Virus record (IMG/VR): IMGVR_UViG_3300036846_000690
Location: 1-44,848 of that record
Source: a virus
Length of the DNA: 44,848 bases
Reading direction: 5' to 3' (one strand)
Position numbers and translations under genes: made by a program. The notes under the pieces were generated by a model. The model was not told where the DNA came from. It made no database searches and saw only the letters and a list, made by a program, of their open reading frames with translations. Of this stretch, positions 37,007 to 44,848 are shown piece after piece; the first letter of the stretch is position 1, and each line of letters starts with the position of its first letter.

Positions 37007-38101
37007 TTACTCCTTGAGTAGGTCGGGTTGGAATCCTGAGTAGCGCTCGTCGTCGAAGGTGAAGTCGTGGTCGATCATGTCCTCGATATCGAGACCCGCG
37101 AACTCAGCAGTACACAGCTCGTGGTACTCACAACCCCATCGGCAGCTGTAGAAATACGACCGCGGTGGATTGTCGAGGTCTCGACGCTCAATGTCCCTGA
37201 CTGTGGCAAGGAACTCATCGAGGGCTTGTTCGATCTTCTCATCCTCAACGGGGATGGGCACTTGACGATACCACATCCACTGACGGTCCCTGAGTTGAAC
37301 GAGCTTGCCCTTGTAGACACGCTTCGCCCACTCTTTCCATTGACTGCCGTGTGCGTCCTTGATAGCCTGGATATACGTATAGTAGTCGGTGTCGAGGCTG
37401 CCCCTCTGGGTGAGTGTACCCGCCGCACCGTAGGCACTACTACGCTTCAGGACGTATGGGATCGTGGGCGGTTTCGTGCGGAGATAGTTATACACGAAGC
37501 CCCTGATATCATAGCCCTTCTGCCTCAACGCCCAGACGTACATACAGTTCTGTGGAGACATCATCCGCTCGTCATCAGAGGGGATATTCTTCACGTTCTT
37601 GTGGTCCCTGATCCATAGCCCGCCCCAGTCGTGATCCTCTACGAGCAGGTCGATCTGCCCCTTGAAGGGGGTCTGTATGCCGAACTCCTTGAGCGACACC
37701 TCAACTACGAACTCGATAGCGGGCTTACCGTTGTCGAGTGTCGCCACAGTGTAGCGTCCTTCTGTCTTCTTTTCCTCACGAAGGTAGCCGAGAAACAGGT
37801 GCTCACACTCACCGGGCAGATCACCCAGCATCTCTTTCTCCTCCTCGAACAGGGCGTTGAACTGCTTGGTCAGCCTCTTGTGAACCTTCTTCCACCCCTT
37901 CGTCTTCGCCCCAGCCACCTCCCGTAGATGCGCCTCCATGAGTTTGTGCATCCACGACCCCTTCTCAAGTCCCTTGCTCTTGACCTTCCTCACCATTTCC
38001 AGCTCCGGTGCGAGGCCAAGCTGACCAGCGGTGTCGTAGCGATAGCTGTACTGCTTCTGACACCGACGGAACTGCTTGATCCGAGACTGGTTGTATGCCA
38101 T
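37007..38101 (-). CDS. Cas4/AddB-type PD-(D/E)xK nuclease with 4Fe-4S cluster, 364 aa
   Basis: ATG 38101 overlaps the upstream TAA. RecB-family nuclease signature: GSWMH (His52), GQIDLLVED (Asp151), RDHK (166-168, the ExK position with Asp and His), and QNCMYVW (Gln184, Tyr188). Cys14 plus CRWGCEYHELC (Cys320, 324, 330) form the CX3CX5C Fe-S cluster typical of Cas4 and AddB nucleases. It should act as a 5' to 3' exonuclease that makes single strands for the Sak4/SSB pair. No CRISPR genes are nearby, so an adaptation role is not suggested. Confidence 0.88.
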   Translation of the reverse strand: MAYNQSRIKQFRRCQKQYSYRYDTAGQLGLAPELEMVRKVKSKGLEKGSWMHKLMEAHLREVAGAKTKGWKKVHKRLTKQFNALFEEEKEMLGDLPGECEHLFLGYLREEKKTEGRYTVATLDNGKPAIEFVVEVSLKEFGIQTPFKGQIDLLVEDHDWGGLWIRDHKNVKNIPSDDERMMSPQNCMYVWALRQKGYDIRGFVYNYLRTKPPTIPYVLKRSSAYGAAGTLTQRGSLDTDYYTYIQAIKDAHGSQWKEWAKRVYKGKLVQLRDRQWMWYRQVPIPVEDEKIEQALDEFLATVRDIERRDLDNPPRSYFYSCRWGCEYHELCTAEFAGLDIEDMIDHDFTFDDERYSGFQPDLLKE

Positions 38102-38964
38102 TACAGTGGGTGCCCTGCGTCGAGTTGCGCACCGATCAGCGGTGCTCCGTGAGTGTAGTTGTCGTGGTGCGACATCTGCTCCCCAGTACCCCAGAGCCGT
38201 TCGACGTTGATCCCAGTGTGAACGTGAGGCGCTTCAGGGTGTGGGGCAACTGTACCGATTGTCTCGCCCTGATAGAACTGCTCACCTACTGTGGGCGATA
38301 CGGCGAGATGACCGAACCACCAACGCAGTCCGGAATGTCCGTCGGCGTAGAACGCCATGCCATGAGACGCAGTCCCAACGCGGGTTACAGTCAACGACTC
38401 AGGTGCAAGCACCCGGCGACCTGCGTACCAGACAGAGTCGAATGCTGGATAGTACGACAAGCCGCTGGTTTCGTGTGTCAGATCGTATTCCCTCACGCTG
38501 GGTCCGCCTTCTTCGATGGGCCCGAGATTGATCTTCGACAGCTCCTTGCCGTTGAACATCTCCCACGCCTCATCGATGAGCTTCGCGGCAGTTGCGTCCA
38601 TCGCCATCTCGCCCTCGTGTGGGCCTGTCGGCACCCTGATCGAGCGCAGCGTGTTGAACGTGTTCTTACCTACGAAGCCGGTGGGTTCGATGTTCTGCTG
38701 ACGTTGTACGCCGGCGACGCCCGTCTCACTAACGTTACCGCTGCGGCCGTGTGAGAAGGCGTTGCTGAAGGCTTCGTCGAAGTTCGATGCTGGTCCTAGC
38801 CAACGACCTGCACGCCATACAGTTCGCTTGTACGCTACGACATCTGGTCCGTCCACAGATGGTGTCTTGCCTGGTGCTGAGTCCGGCGGATAGAGTGGGC
38901 GTGGGAATCCCTTGACCTTCACCATCGGCCCACCCTTGTACGGCTGCTCCCACCAGTTCGTCAT
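38101..38964 (-). CDS. M23 metallopeptidase with peptidoglycan-binding domain, probable endolysin
   Basis: 287 residues from ATG 38964, which overlaps the upstream stop (ATGA) and has GGGAGG in front. Residues 80-107 look like a PG_binding_1 repeat (GVAGVQRQQNIEPTGFVGK). The C-terminal M23-like peptidase shows DLTHETSGLSYYPAFD (His164, Asp176), VLAPE, WWFGHLAV (His219), GETIGTVA and PHVHTGI (His247/249). It cleaves peptide cross-bridges. No signal peptide, so release would need a holin, not identified with certainty. It lies among replication genes, unlike the SLT/NlpC enzyme in the late operon. Confidence 0.82.
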   Translation of the reverse strand: MTNWWEQPYKGGPMVKVKGFPRPLYPPDSAPGKTPSVDGPDVVAYKRTVWRAGRWLGPASNFDEAFSNAFSHGRSGNVSETGVAGVQRQQNIEPTGFVGKNTFNTLRSIRVPTGPHEGEMAMDATAAKLIDEAWEMFNGKELSKINLGPIEEGGPSVREYDLTHETSGLSYYPAFDSVWYAGRRVLAPESLTVTRVGTASHGMAFYADGHSGLRWWFGHLAVSPTVGEQFYQGETIGTVAPHPEAPHVHTGINVERLWGTGEQMSHHDNYTHGAPLIGAQLDAGHPL

Positions 38965-39168: not shown

Positions 39169-41646
39169 CTATGACTCAATCAGTTTGTCCATCCCTAGTC
39201 CCGATGCGTCCGGCGTGCCCTGCCATTGCTGGCCGTAGTCAATGTCAGCTACGATGGGTACGACGGGGTCGAAGCCGAACACCTTCTTCAGCGGCAGGTT
39301 CTCCATGACTTCCTTGATGATCGGCGCGTAGTACGCAGCTCTATCCTCACGTATCTGAAAGAAGATAGCGTCGTGTAGGGTGCCAACCATGAACGCTTCC
39401 TGTGGGTCAAGGATCTCGTGCAGCTTTATCATGGAGAAGAGCATCAGATCATTCGCTGTGCCCTGGACAGGCGAGTTGATAGCTTGACGCTCAGCCTCCA
39501 TTCTAACTCCATTGTCCTGAGAGAGAATATCAGGTAGATGGCGGATCCGACCAAGTGGCGATACAACACGATGGTAGTTATGAGCAACGCGGCGTTGTCT
39601 ATCATGCCAAGCCACCAGATCAGGGAAAGTGTCGAAGTAAGCGTGTCTTGCCTCTTCTGCCTCAGCGAGGGACACCTCCAGATCGTAGTTCTCAAATGCG
39701 TACTGTTGGAACTTACGGGGATACATCCCATAGAGGAATCCGAAGTTCACCGACTTCGCTAGCTTTCTCTCCTCCTTCGTCACCAAAGATCCAGGTTTCC
39801 CAGTCAAGTTCATAGCCATCACCATGTGCAGATCCTCGCCCGCTAGGAATGAGCGCCTCATCTTTCTCTCCTGAGCGCAGTGGGCAGCGATGCGCAACTC
39901 GATTTGCGAGTAGTCCGCTTGGACGAAAACCCACCCCGGAGGAGCACCTATGACACCACGTATGAATGTATCTCTCGGTACCTGTTGCAGGTCGCCAGAC
40001 AATCTCCCAGTTACTGTCCCGTACAGCTTGTACGTTGTGTGGAGGCGCGAGCGCGAATCCAACTTCGTAGACCACGGTAGCAAGTAAGTCCTCAGCCACT
40101 TCAGCTCCAATGTTCGATACTCTAGTAGTGCCTTGACTGCCGGGTGTGAGTGATAATGTAGAAGTACAGCCTCGCGCGTTGAAGGCGCCCCTGTCGCTGT
40201 CGTCTCGATAGGGGATAGCCCGAGCCCCTTTGCAGAAAAGAGCCACTTACCGACCTGCTGAGTGGAGTTGAAGTTGAACCCTTCGCTCCGTCGGCCTGGT
40301 GTGATGCCGAGCTTCTTCTCCCACTTCTTCGGAAGATGGTCATAGAGAATCTCCTTCCGCTTGCCTATCTCACCCTGTAGGATAGATACCCTATCCCACA
40401 TCAGATCCTGATTCACATACATGCCCACAGTCTCTACCTCTTGAATGACGTGGGATGCGGGCATCATTAGCTTGATGAACAGGCGAGTCAGTCTTGGTTG
40501 CTGTAGTAGCTCAGTACGTACTCGTTGGTAGATCTGGTGAGTGTAGCCCACGTCAAACCCGTTGTACTGGCAGATCTTCCTGAGAGGTTCGCCCATAATC
40601 TTCTCTGGCTTGAGCTCCACCATACCCTTGTACTCATCAGCGCCGATGACATTCTGAGATAAGAAGCCGAGGTTCTTAGGCCTGTTCTCATCAAGAAGGT
40701 GAGCAGCAAGCATGATATCAAACTGATGGCGCAGGTAAACTCCGGCTCCGGCAAGTTGGGCATTGTCATGCTTACCATTTTGCGCCACGAGTTTGTGTCC
40801 GTGTCTTCGAAGCCCAGGGGCAAGATAGCGTAGTACGTCTTTCCACTTGCGTCGAAACGGACTCTCAGGGTGAGATAGGGGGATGACGTAAGTGTTCTCA
40901 CCGTCCAATGAAACGCCCAGACAGACGATGTCCCACTCAGATTCCCACGGCCTTCCACGGTTTTCAACGTCATAGCTTATCACCGTGCCCTCCGGGGCGT
41001 CCATGAGCATGTTCTTGACCTGCTCAAGCCCCTTTAGTGTTCGTACCATCTTAGGTCTGACAGAAACTGCTCGGAACTGTCCCGACACCATGCGGGCAAA
41101 GCGTCGAATATCTTCGGAAAAAACTGTACCTTGTCCGGGGTTACGTAGAACATATGCTGGATGTATAGTTGCCATGACTTCTGCCGAGGACCAAGCGGCA
41201 TCACGGATATCCAGCCTAACACCACGCTTAGTAGTGATTCCCGACTTTCGAGCAACGACTTGAAGGGCGGTGTTTCCGAGGAGGAGAACATGAGATGGAA
41301 CCAGTGCGGCTGCCTCTCTCTCCAGATACTGACGGCAAGCCTCCCACTCGATTCGGCTAGGTCTACGGTTGTCGTCGGGGCGACACTTGACCACGTTAGT
41401 GACATAAACCTGGTCTCTCTCCAGTCCAGCATCTTTGAGCGCGAGGTCCAACAGTTGACCGGCTGCCCCTGAAAAGACCCTGCCTGTACGAGCCTCGTTT
41501 GCACCTGGTGCCTCCCCGATTATCATGATCTTGCTGTCCTTAGGACCACTGCCCATGACACAGACCCGCTCCGTACCCTCATGTAGCGCACAGTCCGTGC
41601 AGTCGTGGTCAGCGAGGTAGTCTAGCTCACTGTGGTATGATGACAT
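39169..41646 (-). CDS. Family A DNA polymerase with N-terminal UDG-like domain, 825 aa
   Basis: Residues 1-190 resemble family-4 uracil-DNA glycosylase: Cys16, Cys19, Cys88 and Cys104 for a 4Fe-4S cluster, GEAPGANEARTG (44-55) and IHPAY (161-165). A DnaQ-like 3'-5' exonuclease follows with YDVEN (Asp226, Glu228), AQNGKHD (Asn290, Asp294) and YNGFD (Tyr361, Asp365), apparently intact. The polymerase has motif A DYSQIELR (578-585), motif B R627-K631-F635-Y639 (Phe at the E. coli Phe762 position) and motif C LHDA (757-760), where the usual HDE glutamate is Ala. No 5' nuclease domain. Replicative polymerase; the UDG part may read or stall at uracil. ATG 41646 overlaps the dCMP deaminase gene by 25 bp. 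Confidence 0.92.
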   Translation of the reverse strand: MSSYHSELDYLADHDCTDCALHEGTERVCVMGSGPKDSKIMIIGEAPGANEARTGRVFSGAAGQLLDLALKDAGLERDQVYVTNVVKCRPDDNRRPSRIEWEACRQYLEREAAALVPSHVLLLGNTALQVVARKSGITTKRGVRLDIRDAAWSSAEVMATIHPAYVLRNPGQGTVFSEDIRRFARMVSGQFRAVSVRPKMVRTLKGLEQVKNMLMDAPEGTVISYDVENRGRPWESEWDIVCLGVSLDGENTYVIPLSHPESPFRRKWKDVLRYLAPGLRRHGHKLVAQNGKHDNAQLAGAGVYLRHQFDIMLAAHLLDENRPKNLGFLSQNVIGADEYKGMVELKPEKIMGEPLRKICQYNGFDVGYTHQIYQRVRTELLQQPRLTRLFIKLMMPASHVIQEVETVGMYVNQDLMWDRVSILQGEIGKRKEILYDHLPKKWEKKLGITPGRRSEGFNFNSTQQVGKWLFSAKGLGLSPIETTATGAPSTREAVLLHYHSHPAVKALLEYRTLELKWLRTYLLPWSTKLDSRSRLHTTYKLYGTVTGRLSGDLQQVPRDTFIRGVIGAPPGWVFVQADYSQIELRIAAHCAQERKMRRSFLAGEDLHMVMAMNLTGKPGSLVTKEERKLAKSVNFGFLYGMYPRKFQQYAFENYDLEVSLAEAEEARHAYFDTFPDLVAWHDRQRRVAHNYHRVVSPLGRIRHLPDILSQDNGVRMEAERQAINSPVQGTANDLMLFSMIKLHEILDPQEAFMVGTLHDAIFFQIREDRAAYYAPIIKEVMENLPLKKVFGFDPVVPIVADIDYGQQWQGTPDASGLGMDKLIES

Positions 41647-42068
41647 CTCACCCCCGCAGCTTCTAGTAGTTCCCGGCCCGACGGGTCACGATACCCCTCG
41701 AGATAGTACACAGCTTGGATGCCTGCAGCGATCAGCAATCGAGCACAATCGACGCAAGGTGTGAGTGTAACGTACAGCGTTCCCCCGTCTGTAGAGATCC
41801 CCTGACGCGCTGCAAACGCCAGTGCATTCGCTTCTGCGTGCGTCGCATTGCGGCAACCCATCTCTGGTTCGTTGTGCTTGAACTTAGGTGCCCAGCCGTG
41901 GTTGTTCTCTTCGCAGTGGGGCATGCCTGGTGGCGCACCATTGTAGCCCCAGGTGACACATCGACCATCGTGAGTGATGACAGCCCCGACCTTCTTACGA
42001 TCACACGTACCGAGCTGAGCGAGGTCGCCGGCGATCAGCATGAAGACTCTGTCCTTCTTAGTAATCAT
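41622..42068 (-). CDS. Deoxycytidylate (dCMP) deaminase
   Basis: 148 residues; start at ATG 42068, which overlaps the upstream stop (ATGA), rather than the much longer frame that runs into the neighbour. Zinc site HAEA (His77, Glu79) and PCVDC (Cys105, Cys108). The N-terminal part (AQLGTCDRKKVGAVI, WGYNGAPPGM) matches the dCMP deaminase group. The reaction is dCMP to dUMP plus ammonia, normally feeding dTMP synthesis. Sitting between a ThyA-like enzyme and a UDG-fused polymerase, it sets the dC/dU pool of the phage. Confidence 0.92.
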   Translation of the reverse strand: MITKKDRVFMLIAGDLAQLGTCDRKKVGAVITHDGRCVTWGYNGAPPGMPHCEENNHGWAPKFKHNEPEMGCRNATHAEANALAFAARQGISTDGGTLYVTLTPCVDCARLLIAAGIQAVYYLEGYRDPSGRELLEAAGVRCHHTTVS

Positions 42069-42838
42069 CTCGACCTCAACTGGTGCTTGTCGCCTCGGTG
42101 AACGTGGAACGAGTACGCAGTGAAGTAGAGATTGCCGGGCTTCACGTCCTCCCACACATCGTCCTTGAAACGTAGCTCGTCCAGCACCCACTGACACAAC
42201 CGCCCAGCCATGTAGACGTCGTCGCGGAAGTGTCGCACAGCATCGCAGCTACGGATTGGATACCACAGATGGAGGAGATTCTCCCGATTGAGGAAGTGGT
42301 AGTGCAGCGTGCAGGGAATGCGTCCGCCGTGGACTGCACCCGTATCTTCGGGGAAGAAGATGGGGAACGTCGCCTGCCTCGTGAGTGGGTGTAGATGCAG
42401 CAGGGAGATAACATCGTCGAGGTCCCCGTAGTGATATCTGACCCCCATCATGGTGCGGAACTTAGGCACCGAGTCACGAGGCCAGAAGCGCTCGCTGTAT
42501 GTGTGGCTGAACATACCATCGTACATCGTAGACTCAGTCTGCTCATGCCACCAGGGCCAATACTGCAGGCTCTGATGCGGGTTACGCGGTACCCTACCGA
42601 CACGCTCCTTGAACTCGAGGTCCGCCCACGGCATGCTGGGATCGCACTCATCGAGCAGGTCTGCCTGAGTCGCGGGGATAGGTGCAGACCACGATAGATT
42701 CACCACCTCATCTGTGGTCAGATCGGGCTTACCCTCAGTGTTATAGCCCTGCCAGTGGCCTGTGTTCACCTCCTTTCCGTACGCTAGGAGGTTATTGATC
42801 GAGCCTTCGATGGCATTACTCAGGCGAGGGAAATCCAT
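42065..42838 (-). CDS. ThyA-superfamily enzyme with Asp at the dCMP-selecting position
   Basis: 257 residues. ATG 42838 gives a seven-base spacing to GGAGG (42841 is the alternative). Thymidylate-synthase landmarks: LTRQATFPIFF (152-162), catalytic Cys176 in IPCTLHYHF, Arg196 in PIRSCDA and YSFHVH (242-247). Cys to Arg spacing is 20 as in E. coli TS (146 to 166). The residue matching Asn177 is Asp207 (Arg plus 11). Asp there is characteristic of dCMP hydroxymethylases and switches TS variants to dCMP. So the likely substrate is dCMP, giving methyl- or hydroxymethyl-dCMP. The dUMP enzyme remains possible. Confidence 0.8.
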   Translation of the reverse strand: MDFPRLSNAIEGSINNLLAYGKEVNTGHWQGYNTEGKPDLTTDEVVNLSWSAPIPATQADLLDECDPSMPWADLEFKERVGRVPRNPHQSLQYWPWWHEQTESTMYDGMFSHTYSERFWPRDSVPKFRTMMGVRYHYGDLDDVISLLHLHPLTRQATFPIFFPEDTGAVHGGRIPCTLHYHFLNRENLLHLWYPIRSCDAVRHFRDDVYMAGRLCQWVLDELRFKDDVWEDVKPGNLYFTAYSFHVHRGDKHQLRSR

Positions 42839-43038
42839 CATCGACCCTCCAGTGCCTTCATGAGCGGTACTACCGAGTCTGTCAGTCGCCCTAGGTATGA
42901 CCCATGGGCATTGAACACCAACACCTCGCCTCCGGTAAACCCGAACCGAGATCGCACCTCGGCTGGGTCTACACACACTGACGGGTACGTCTCGGGGTCG
43001 TTGGGATCGAACGTGACTAGCTCAACTCTTAGGTGCAT
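42838..43038 (-). CDS. Hypothetical protein, 66 aa
   Basis: Not recognised. ATG 43038 with GGAG nine bases upstream is chosen over the first in-frame ATG at 43053, which has no ribosome-binding site. Contains LVTFDPNDPETYPSV and GGEVLVFNAHGSYLGRL, a small beta-rich domain. Coupled to the ThyA-like gene (TGATG). Confidence 0.65.
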   Translation of the reverse strand: MHLRVELVTFDPNDPETYPSVCVDPAEVRSRFGFTGGEVLVFNAHGSYLGRLTDSVVPLMKALEGR

Positions 43039-43219
43039 TGTGCTTTGCTCCATATCCGTAGTGGTAGTCGTAGTATGTCCGACAGCAGTTCGCCGAACAG
43101 AATGGATCCTTGACGGCGACGGCGAGTGCTGGTCGCGTATTGCCGCAGGTGAAACACTTGCCGTTCGCCTTGACGGGCGGGTCACGTGGGTCCTTCTCCT
43201 TCCGCTTCCTAGTTACCAT
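43022..43219 (-). CDS. FCS-type zinc-finger-like protein, 65 aa
   Basis: ATG 43219 with GGGGAGG. Basic N-terminus, then CFTCGN (residues 22-27) and FCSANCC (39-45), an arrangement like FCS/MYM zinc fingers (CxxC...FCS..C). A small nucleic-acid- or protein-binding module of unknown role in the modification cassette. Confidence 0.75.
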   Translation of the reverse strand: MVTRKRKEKDPRDPPVKANGKCFTCGNTRPALAVAVKDPFCSANCCRTYYDYHYGYGAKHNAPKS

Positions 43220-43577
43220 TGTCCTCCCCGATCAGTGTCCACTCGTCGCCGTCCTTCGTGTAGCGCGAGTCCTTGTGACGGTTGAGATGCGACCGCACAG
43301 TGTTCACGTCTACGGACAGCCTCTCGGCAATCGCCGTAGGTGTTGCTGAGCCGCCAGCCTCACGCATGGCAACGATGACCTCCTCCATGGTGAGTCGAGT
43401 GCCGCTGCCGATGGAACCTGTCGTGCCACGCTCGTTCAATAGCGTAGCGCGCGTGCGCTTGAGGCGGTTGAGCTCGTCGATGTGCGGCTGCACCTTCGCG
43501 AGCATCTTCTCCTTCTTCTTGATTTGCTCATCGAGCACGTCGAGCACCGCCTGTTGCGGGATACTGACCTTCTGCAT
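43209..43577 (-). CDS. Coiled-coil winged-helix protein, 122 aa
   Basis: Start at ATG 43577 after AAAGGAGATGTC. Residues about 10-50 form a charged coiled coil (VLDEQIKKKEKMLAKVQPHIDELNRL spans it). Residues 63-115 are a winged helix (TPTAIAERLSVDV, TVRSHLNRHKDSRY, DEWTLIG). Likely a dimeric DNA-binding regulator, perhaps of this operon. Confidence 0.78.
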   Translation of the reverse strand: MQKVSIPQQAVLDVLDEQIKKKEKMLAKVQPHIDELNRLKRTRATLLNERGTTGSIGSGTRLTMEEVIVAMREAGGSATPTAIAERLSVDVNTVRSHLNRHKDSRYTKDGDEWTLIGEDNGN

Positions 43578-43623
43578 GACATCTCCTTTAGCCTTCTGCA
43601 ATGGAAGCCCCCTTTTTTTGCCC

Positions 43624-43788
43624 TTACTCCTTGGTCCGAATCATTACCTCGAACCTTTCAGGATGGATGAGCGCCTCGATCAACACGTCGGTCTCATCAA
43701 TCTCGCCGACGAAGTCGAACTCTGGAAACTCATCACGGGCCTCCTCGATCAGGGCCTTGATCCTCATCCTGATTTCGTGGGCATCCAT
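43624..43788 (-). CDS. Hypothetical acidic protein, 54 aa
   Basis: Not recognised. ATG 43788 with GGAGG five bases upstream. Acidic, helical (HEIRMRIKALIEEARDEF, DVLIEALIHPE). First gene behind the operator-rich promoter at 43838. Confidence 0.75.
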   Translation of the reverse strand: MDAHEIRMRIKALIEEARDEFPEFDFVGEIDETDVLIEALIHPERFEVMIRTKE

Positions 43789-43820
43789 CGTAACCTCCAT
43801 TGTCAGGGTTCATACGCAAT

Positions 43821-43876
43821 CGAACGAATGCGCACACACATCATATCAAACCCAAACGTTCGAGGTCGAACGAATG
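43821..43876. promoter_or_regulatory. Operator-like region: two CGAACGAATG copies and an inverted repeat
   Basis: CGAACGAATG occurs at 43821-43830 and 43867-43876, 46 bp apart, and brackets the promoter box. An inverted repeat CGTTCGA-GG-TCGAACG spans 43857-43872. The first copy covers the predicted transcription start, the second the -35 region. Confidence 0.65.
43838..43848 (-). promoter_or_regulatory. Minus-facing TGATATGATGT promoter box
   Basis: Extended -10 TG-A-TATGAT on the minus strand, identical in 11 bases to the box at 2532-2542. No -35 match. It should drive 43788 down through the ThyA-like, deaminase and polymerase genes. Confidence 0.55.
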
Positions 43877-43882
43877 TCCAGG

Positions 43883-44716
43883 CTAGTAGAGGGGCCCCAG
43901 GGTCAGCTGGTCGAGCGTGACGGATGGCAGGTAGTCCTCGTTGATGTACTCGATGTAGCGCCGACGCACCCTACGGAGCGGACCGTACTTCTCCTCAATC
44001 AGTGGCTTACCGTTCTCCGTGTCGGTGACGATCTTGTCCCACCATTTGCCGACGAGCTTCATGGTTGGGTACTTGAGGCGCAGGCGCTCGTTCTCTAGGT
44101 CGTGAATGAACTCCTGCTTGTAGAGGAAGGGGAGGGACTTGAAGCCATGGAACTGGAGGCTATCGATGTACCACCGAAACTGAAAGGCATCGAGAGGAAC
44201 GTCAACTCGCTCCCCAATCTCTCGGGCAAGTACTGACGCAAGTGCCAGGTCAAGACCTCCGATATAAGCGACGTAGGATACTCGACTGTGCATGGAGATA
44301 GTAGGTCCCCCAGTCTCTCCAGCGTATCGCCGATTACCTCGATAAGTGAAGCCGAGCATACAGTTACCCCACCGATGCTTCTTGGCCTCTCTCGTGACTG
44401 CCGCACAAGGCATCTGTGTAACCACGCCTTTCGCCCCTTCGCCAACAGCAATATCCGCTGCCCGGTCAATGAAGGCTCGTGTGTCAGAGAGATCGAGATA
44501 CTGTCGGACGAGGCGTGTCCATCGCTGTCGATTGAGCCACAGATCACGGCCAAGATCAATGTCGAAGTCCATCGAATCTGCAAGTAGTAGGTTGTCGTAT
44601 GAGATAGTGTCAGCCGAACCCACCACGCTGATTCGTCCGTTGTCGAGTGTCCCACGCCACATCCTCCAGACTGTCTTGCGCCACAGGTCGGACATTGTCG
44701 GGTAGCGGACGATCAT
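43883..44716 (-). CDS. Second, divergent ThyA-superfamily-like protein, 277 aa
   Basis: ATG 44716 overlaps the upstream stop (ATGA). Not a clear family member, but landmarks line up with the other ThyA-like gene: Cys119 in WGNCMLGFTY, Arg145 in HSRVSYVAY, Asp156 in GGLDLAL (Arg plus 11, the E. coli TS Asn177 position) and SLQFHGFKS farther on. Cys to Arg spacing is 26, explained by a six-residue insertion. The C-terminal 100 residues are helical and basic. I infer a nucleotide C5-modifying enzyme or an inactive partner. Without a profile search this remains tentative. Confidence 0.5.
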   Translation of the reverse strand: MIVRYPTMSDLWRKTVWRMWRGTLDNGRISVVGSADTISYDNLLLADSMDFDIDLGRDLWLNRQRWTRLVRQYLDLSDTRAFIDRAADIAVGEGAKGVVTQMPCAAVTREAKKHRWGNCMLGFTYRGNRRYAGETGGPTISMHSRVSYVAYIGGLDLALASVLAREIGERVDVPLDAFQFRWYIDSLQFHGFKSLPFLYKQEFIHDLENERLRLKYPTMKLVGKWWDKIVTDTENGKPLIEEKYGPLRRVRRRYIEYINEDYLPSVTLDQLTLGPLY

Positions 44717-44848
44717 TCAGTTAGCTCCTTCAGCTTATCGAGCGCTTCCTGGTCGTGTTGATCCCTCGCCAGCCGTTCGTAGGCAGCGAGTGGGTGATCG
44801 GGCGGGAAGATGAACTGACCATCGACCCACGGATGATGCACACCCGGC
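44713..44848 (-). CDS. Partial gene running off the right edge (C-terminal 44 aa)
   Basis: The minus-strand frame is open from the window edge to a TGA at 44713-44715, overlapping the next ATG. The visible end (VDGQFIFPPDHPLAAYERLARD, then LDKLKELTE) has no recognisable motif. It belongs to the same operon. Confidence 0.7.
   Translation of the reverse strand, partial: PGVHHPWVDGQFIFPPDHPLAAYERLARDQHDQEALDKLKELTE

Follow-up and report, generated by a model that had tools for sequence, protein, structure and literature searches.

Paired thymidylate synthase-fold proteins with a cytidylate-type aspartate suggest nucleotide-level cytosine modification in actinobacterial and proteobacterial phages

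The viral DNA analyzed here (IMG/VR record IMGVR_UViG_3300036846_000690, 44,848 nucleotides, hereafter the window) contains a run of minus-strand genes, among them those for two proteins that we call A and B (Table 1). A Shine-Dalgarno-like sequence lies 5' of both start codons, while promoter and terminator scans stayed at the level of shuffled sequence. The initial annotation had pointed to residues C176, R196 and D207 of A, with spacings of 20 and 11, and to R145 and D156 of B, with a spacing of 11. All of these residues are present, but the strand has to be corrected: the genes are read from the minus strand, and the plus strand has stops.

Table 1. Features of the A/B locus, in window coordinates
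Feature	Coordinates	Strand	Length	Remarks
DNA polymerase I with N-terminal UDG-superfamily domain	39169..41646	minus		PF00476 9.5e-81, PF03167 5.8e-36
dCMP deaminase	41622..42068	minus		PF00383 4.2e-21; phrog_174 8.6e-51; starts with ATG at 42068, shortly before A ends
Protein A gene	42838..42065	minus	257 aa	Member of the thymidylate synthase superfamily; triad C176/R196/D207; His147 and Asp169 sites occupied by T177 and D199, respectively
Overlapping pair of short ORFs in the B-A interval	42838..43219	minus		43022-43219 Cys-rich, DksA-like E 0.18; 42838-43185
Small HTH-like ORF in the B-A interval	43209..43577	minus		Weak HTH matches
Protein B gene	44716..43883	minus	277 aa	Predicted thymidylate synthase-fold protein of phrog_13667; invariant Y73, C119, R145, D156
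3' end of gene upstream of B	44717..44848	minus		Cut by contig end

Only 132 bases separate B from the end of the contig on its upstream side; in the closest relatives, a thymidylate-kinase-like and a MazG-like gene are located further upstream. Isolates usually show the order kinase, dUTPase_2 or MazG-type pyrophosphatase, B, A, dCMP deaminase and DNA polymerase I, followed by a Cas4-like nuclease and a RecA/Sak4-like ATPase. The kinase of this cassette is a dNMP kinase, and the same arrangement is seen in Muddy, Huwbert, Zuko, Shrew, Serbin, P744 and others. The stretch that holds the small HTH-like and Cys-rich ORFs in the window is occupied in two of the closest relatives by small HNH-endonuclease-like ORFs near B (L053:5199-5618, L053:6448-6780 and L054:6656-6955). 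The UDG-superfamily domain on DNA polymerase I is also found at two other loci (L067 and L071), and was not detected in the Muddy polymerase. A lysin-like ORF with weak PG_binding_1 and metallo-endopeptidase matches lies among the replication genes (38101-38964, minus strand), and in Cozz and Feastonyeet a 'lysin B' is located between A and the deaminase.

Protein A is a divergent member of the thymidylate synthase (TS) superfamily. It matches phrog_160 (thymidylate synthase) with an E-value of 1.6e-21, and although Pfam gives no match for A or B of the window, 52 of 54 relatives of A match PF00303 (best 1.5e-11). Among the PDB matches of a profile built from these 54 relatives, MilA (1.2e-7) and AfhB (6e-7) come ahead of TS, and T4 dCMP hydroxymethylase is also matched (2.4e-5). 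The first-ranked Lactobacillus casei TS entry for the same profile is 1njc, which according to its title is the N229D variant with dCMP, and the AfhB family is matched with an E-value of 8.5e-12. The AlphaFold model of A (pLDDT 92) finds MilA (2.1e-11), T4 dCMP hydroxymethylase (4.5e-11) and also TS in Foldseek searches. In VIA comparisons, AfhB (Z 19.8-19.9), MilA (19.6) and TS (about 19) are all tied. In the tree, A forms a clade of its own with support of 100/99, distinct from the families of T4 and AfhB; one TS row sits on a long branch, so we take only the separateness of A from this tree.

Protein B belongs to phrog_13667, a family of unknown function. It has no meaningful match in Pfam or NCBIfam, and Pfam likewise gives none for 40 of its relatives. 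The AlphaFold model (pLDDT 93.7) nevertheless matches MilA (1.8e-5) and AfhB (2.4e-5) in Foldseek, and in VIA it aligns with AfhB at Z 14.6 over 186-187 residues at 3.3-3.6 A, with MilA at Z 14.3 and with TS at about 11. Searches of a viral structure library with the same model returned the dCMP hydroxymethylase gp42 of Acj9 (7.6e-6), and the named matches there were mostly thymidylate synthases and dCMP hydroxymethylases. An uncharacterized protein of Pseudomonas phage PMBT14 was matched at 1e-7. This phage has a gene of another, distant B branch in proteobacterial phages, which we call B2. Profiles of B1 and B2 retrieve members of the other branch (1e-7 and weaker), and their alignment has a probability of 98.9%. 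Profile comparisons of B with A, with the AfhB family and with the T4 family found nothing, and no sequence relation of B to A or to any TS was detectable. The assignment of B to the TS superfamily is for this reason based on structure and motif, and the predicted fold makes B a putative TS-fold protein. A search for relatives of B in bacterial genomes gave none.

Both families have kept their putative active-site residues. C176, R196 and D207 are unchanged in 65 of 65 homologues of A, and Y73, C119, R145 and D156 in 50 of 50 homologues of B, although the latter diverge to about 10% identity and average 30% in pairs. Conservation of both triads is far beyond chance. C119, which the initial annotation had not named, is likely the nucleophile of B. 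Its distance to R145 is 26 residues in the window, where a loop is inserted, and about 19-21 in most relatives, compatible with the phosphate-binding Arg that follows the Cys by about 20 residues in the TS superfamily, as it does in A. In both AlphaFold models, the motif lies in the same secondary-structure register. The Cys immediately precedes a strand (178-185 in A, 120-126 in B), the Arg is within the next strand (188-199 and 139-148) and the Asp occupies position four of the helix after that (204-225 and 153-171). By this register and by sequence alignment, the site of TS Asn177, the residue expected of a dUMP-using ThyA, holds Asp in every homologue of A and B. The earlier proposal of two ThyA-like enzymes with a dCMP-type Asp is thus borne out, as far as predicted folds can tell, and both models match the TS-fold cytidylate enzymes AfhB and MilA best when ThyA and dCMP hydroxymethylases are included in the search.

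Asp at the Asn177 site is the mark of cytidylate enzymes (PMC5175136, PMC6400193). With D207 in A and D156 in B, both families have the equivalent of Asp179 of T4-type dCMP hydroxymethylases. They resemble T4 gp42 in fold, Cys nucleophile and a similar setting of nucleotide genes; a further likeness is a Thr directly after the Cys. A alone shares the folate-contacting Asp (Asp171 equivalent), which is D199 in A (64 of 65 homologues) and is replaced by Y148 in B (Tyr, Glu or Ser in the family). In contrast, the hydroxymethylase signature that has been proposed, Asp145 three residues before the Cys together with Ser94 (PMC6400193), is missing from A. The Asp145 equivalent (Asp or Glu expected), which is Asp in 57 of 57 members of the T4 family, is Arg173 in 65 of 65 homologues of A and Trp116 in 40 of 50 homologues of B, and in sequence alignment the Ser94 position (two before the Tyr, where Ser or Thr is expected) is His112 in 65 of 65 homologues of A. 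A differs from gp42 also in forming its own clade, B in lacking sequence similarity. Candidates in A for the equivalent of the catalytic Glu60 are E/D73 or E78, the alignment being unsure here, and the equivalents of Gly173 and Phe176 in A are His and Asp.

The other cytidylate enzymes are likewise similar only in part. AfhB, the 5-hydroxy-dCMP synthase of Mosigvirus (PDB 9iqu, 9iqc), shares the Asp at the dCMP site, and is tied with MilA as the top-ranked structural match of A and B. Its family has Glu three residues before the Cys, Thr two residues before the Tyr and Asn at the folate position, where A has Arg, His and Asp; B, which resembles AfhB in structure only, has Trp at the first of these positions and Tyr, Glu or Ser at the last. 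The CMP 5-hydroxymethylase MilA has the corresponding Asp186, but accommodates ribose with Ala176 and Lys133, whereas A has Ser197 (59 of 65) and Arg154, the opposite, deoxy-type pair. In the MetaGPA study (PMC8670742), Asp177 and changes at His147 were characteristic of TS genes from phage contigs carrying modified cytosine. Position 147 of A is Thr or Ser, and A shares with those genes also the co-occurring dCMP deaminase domain. That study, however, followed Pfam PF00303 and a carbamoyltransferase; as family B is without Pfam match, a Pfam-based scan would miss it.

A and B are nearly always found together. Among 107 records with A in a phage collection, B1 occurs in 85 and B2 in 18, which implies a B gene in 103 of the 107, as matched by tallies of organism names (an exact fit) rather than record by record; the other four are distant A matches without B. 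Over 48 loci with both genes, distances in A and B correlate (Mantel r 0.67, 0 of 2000 permutations, uncorrected for phage relatedness), as expected for a cassette that is inherited together. Family B spans actinobacterial and proteobacterial phages. Contigs of large phages (118-434 kb) present a different picture: A is there, but B was detected in 0 of 17 records, with a positive control of 6/6, and three A-bearing contigs of this kind that were searched contain a strong ThyA match. Some carrier phages have a separate ThyA or ThyX, as exemplified by Huwbert, which has A, B and a ThyA with Asn. B-type genes can also occur twice at one locus, in tandem before A (L045, 6053-7983) or on either side of it (L048, 7090-10467). 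At one locus (L028:97-929), the B gene just before A appears as two ORFs, by frameshift, sequencing error or real split.

Since both TS-fold families have the cytosine-selecting change, the phages probably build modified cytosine into their DNA, and we regard modification at the mononucleotide level as the best reading and a reasonably probable one. From conservation, predicted fold, gene order and co-occurrence, we infer the following scheme. A and B would be two distinct enzymes that both bind dCMP; their conserved Cys would attack C6 of the base, and the Asp in place of Asn177 would recognize and protonate N3 of cytosine. The cassette would act on mononucleotides and be arranged as in T4: the dUTPase_2 or MazG-type pyrophosphatase would draw down dCTP and thereby provide dCMP, to which A and B would add a group at C5; the TMP-kinase-like enzyme would phosphorylate the modified dCMP on its way to the triphosphate, which the phage DNA polymerase I would incorporate. 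A, which has kept the pterin-contacting Asp, would most likely carry out a one-carbon (folate) step, and B a non-folate step at C5 or a second step on the product of A. We have less confidence in this division of labor than in the general scheme, and the motifs argue more strongly for dCMP as the probable substrate than for any particular product. In its most specific form, A and B would jointly make a so far undescribed cytosine modification by a two-enzyme route at the nucleotide level, with B as a new TS-superfamily branch that works without folate, and this would hold for many phages of actinobacteria and proteobacteria, Muddy included; this we put forward tentatively, as a possibility that falls short of a probable conclusion. 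The initial annotation had proposed 5-methyl- or 5-hydroxymethyl-dCMP, possibly made in two steps or by a heteromer, and modified cytosine in the phage. This stands in part: the triads, the TS-fold cytidylate matches and the gene context fit, but A is without the hydroxymethylase signature and B without the folate Asp.

Several observations also speak against this scheme. Genes for dCMP deaminase and dUTPase-type enzymes also fit a supply of dUMP and dTMP, A lacks Asp145 and Ser94, and B lacks a detectable sequence relation to A or any TS. The pair could be an unusual thymidylate synthase that makes dTMP from the dUMP provided by its neighbors, a reading to which the thymidylate-kinase-like gene and the database label of A as thymidylate synthase would lend themselves. 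We give it little credence, in view of the Asp for Asn in all homologues of both families and of the ThyA or ThyX that some carriers have in addition; the presence of a ThyA besides A in Huwbert and in the large-phage contigs searched indicates that A is not simply the thymidylate synthase of the phage. In the literature consulted on the carrier phages we found no restriction digests or base analyses; the restriction described in PMC11604996 relates to phage BPs and not to Muddy.

With AfhB ranked first among the structural matches of both models, the main rival reading is that A, B or both hydroxylate dCMP at C5 with a flavin, as AfhB does, which would make the base 5-hydroxycytosine, perhaps decorated later. 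The PDB titles of AfhB entries read dCMP hydroxylase and monooxygenase with dCMP and FAD, and the 5-hydroxy-dCMP synthase has been described as a TS-superfamily member (PMC13390438). The match of the A profile to the AfhB family and the lack of a folate Asp in B, as in AfhB with its Asn, point the same way. However, the Z-scores of MilA are tied with those of AfhB, A has Asp at the folate position and Arg and His for the Glu and Thr of AfhB, and no sugar-transfer gene was recognized among the scanned ORFs, so that we consider 5-hydroxylation unlikely, if worth keeping in mind. ORFs of the early regions of the window gave no clear match to glycosyltransferases or other decorating enzymes; an ORF open at the contig edge (2-778, minus strand) has a GHL15 glycosyl-hydrolase match (5.8e-7) and is not an obvious modification gene. 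Active sites of TS are completed by arginines from the other protomer. B could therefore be an obligate partner subunit instead of a separate catalyst, with mixed sites in A-B heterodimers. The tight pairing and correlated divergence of A and B would be explained in this way, as would the absence from B of an obvious Arg-Arg pair around the Arg126/127 site and the Arg-Gln in A. A purely structural partner would not, however, need an invariant Cys, Arg and Asp, and some loci have two B genes. Moreover, the large-phage contigs suggest that A need not require B and that an obligate heteromer is not general, which makes this model improbable in our view.

If true, the presence of modified cytosine would affect restriction, defense systems, phage engineering and sequencing, in particular for the therapy phage Muddy, one of about a hundred sequenced phages for which it is predicted. 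Many of the predicted carriers can be grown in laboratory strains. The chemistry of the TS superfamily would gain a branch, and phrog_13667 and its distant kin gain a predicted fold and a likely substrate. Both the Asp rule and TS-like dCMP enzymes of phages have been described before. What appears to be new, as far as our analysis shows, is that a family without annotation, which nearly always occurs as one of a pair, can putatively be placed in the TS fold, complete dCMP-type triad included, that this family is spread over phages of actinobacteria and proteobacteria, and that A apparently deviates from each of the two known active-site signatures. Some B2 members in deposited records have been labelled 'pyrimidine hmase synthase' automatically, and part of the TS-type assignment has therefore already been made by annotation pipelines.
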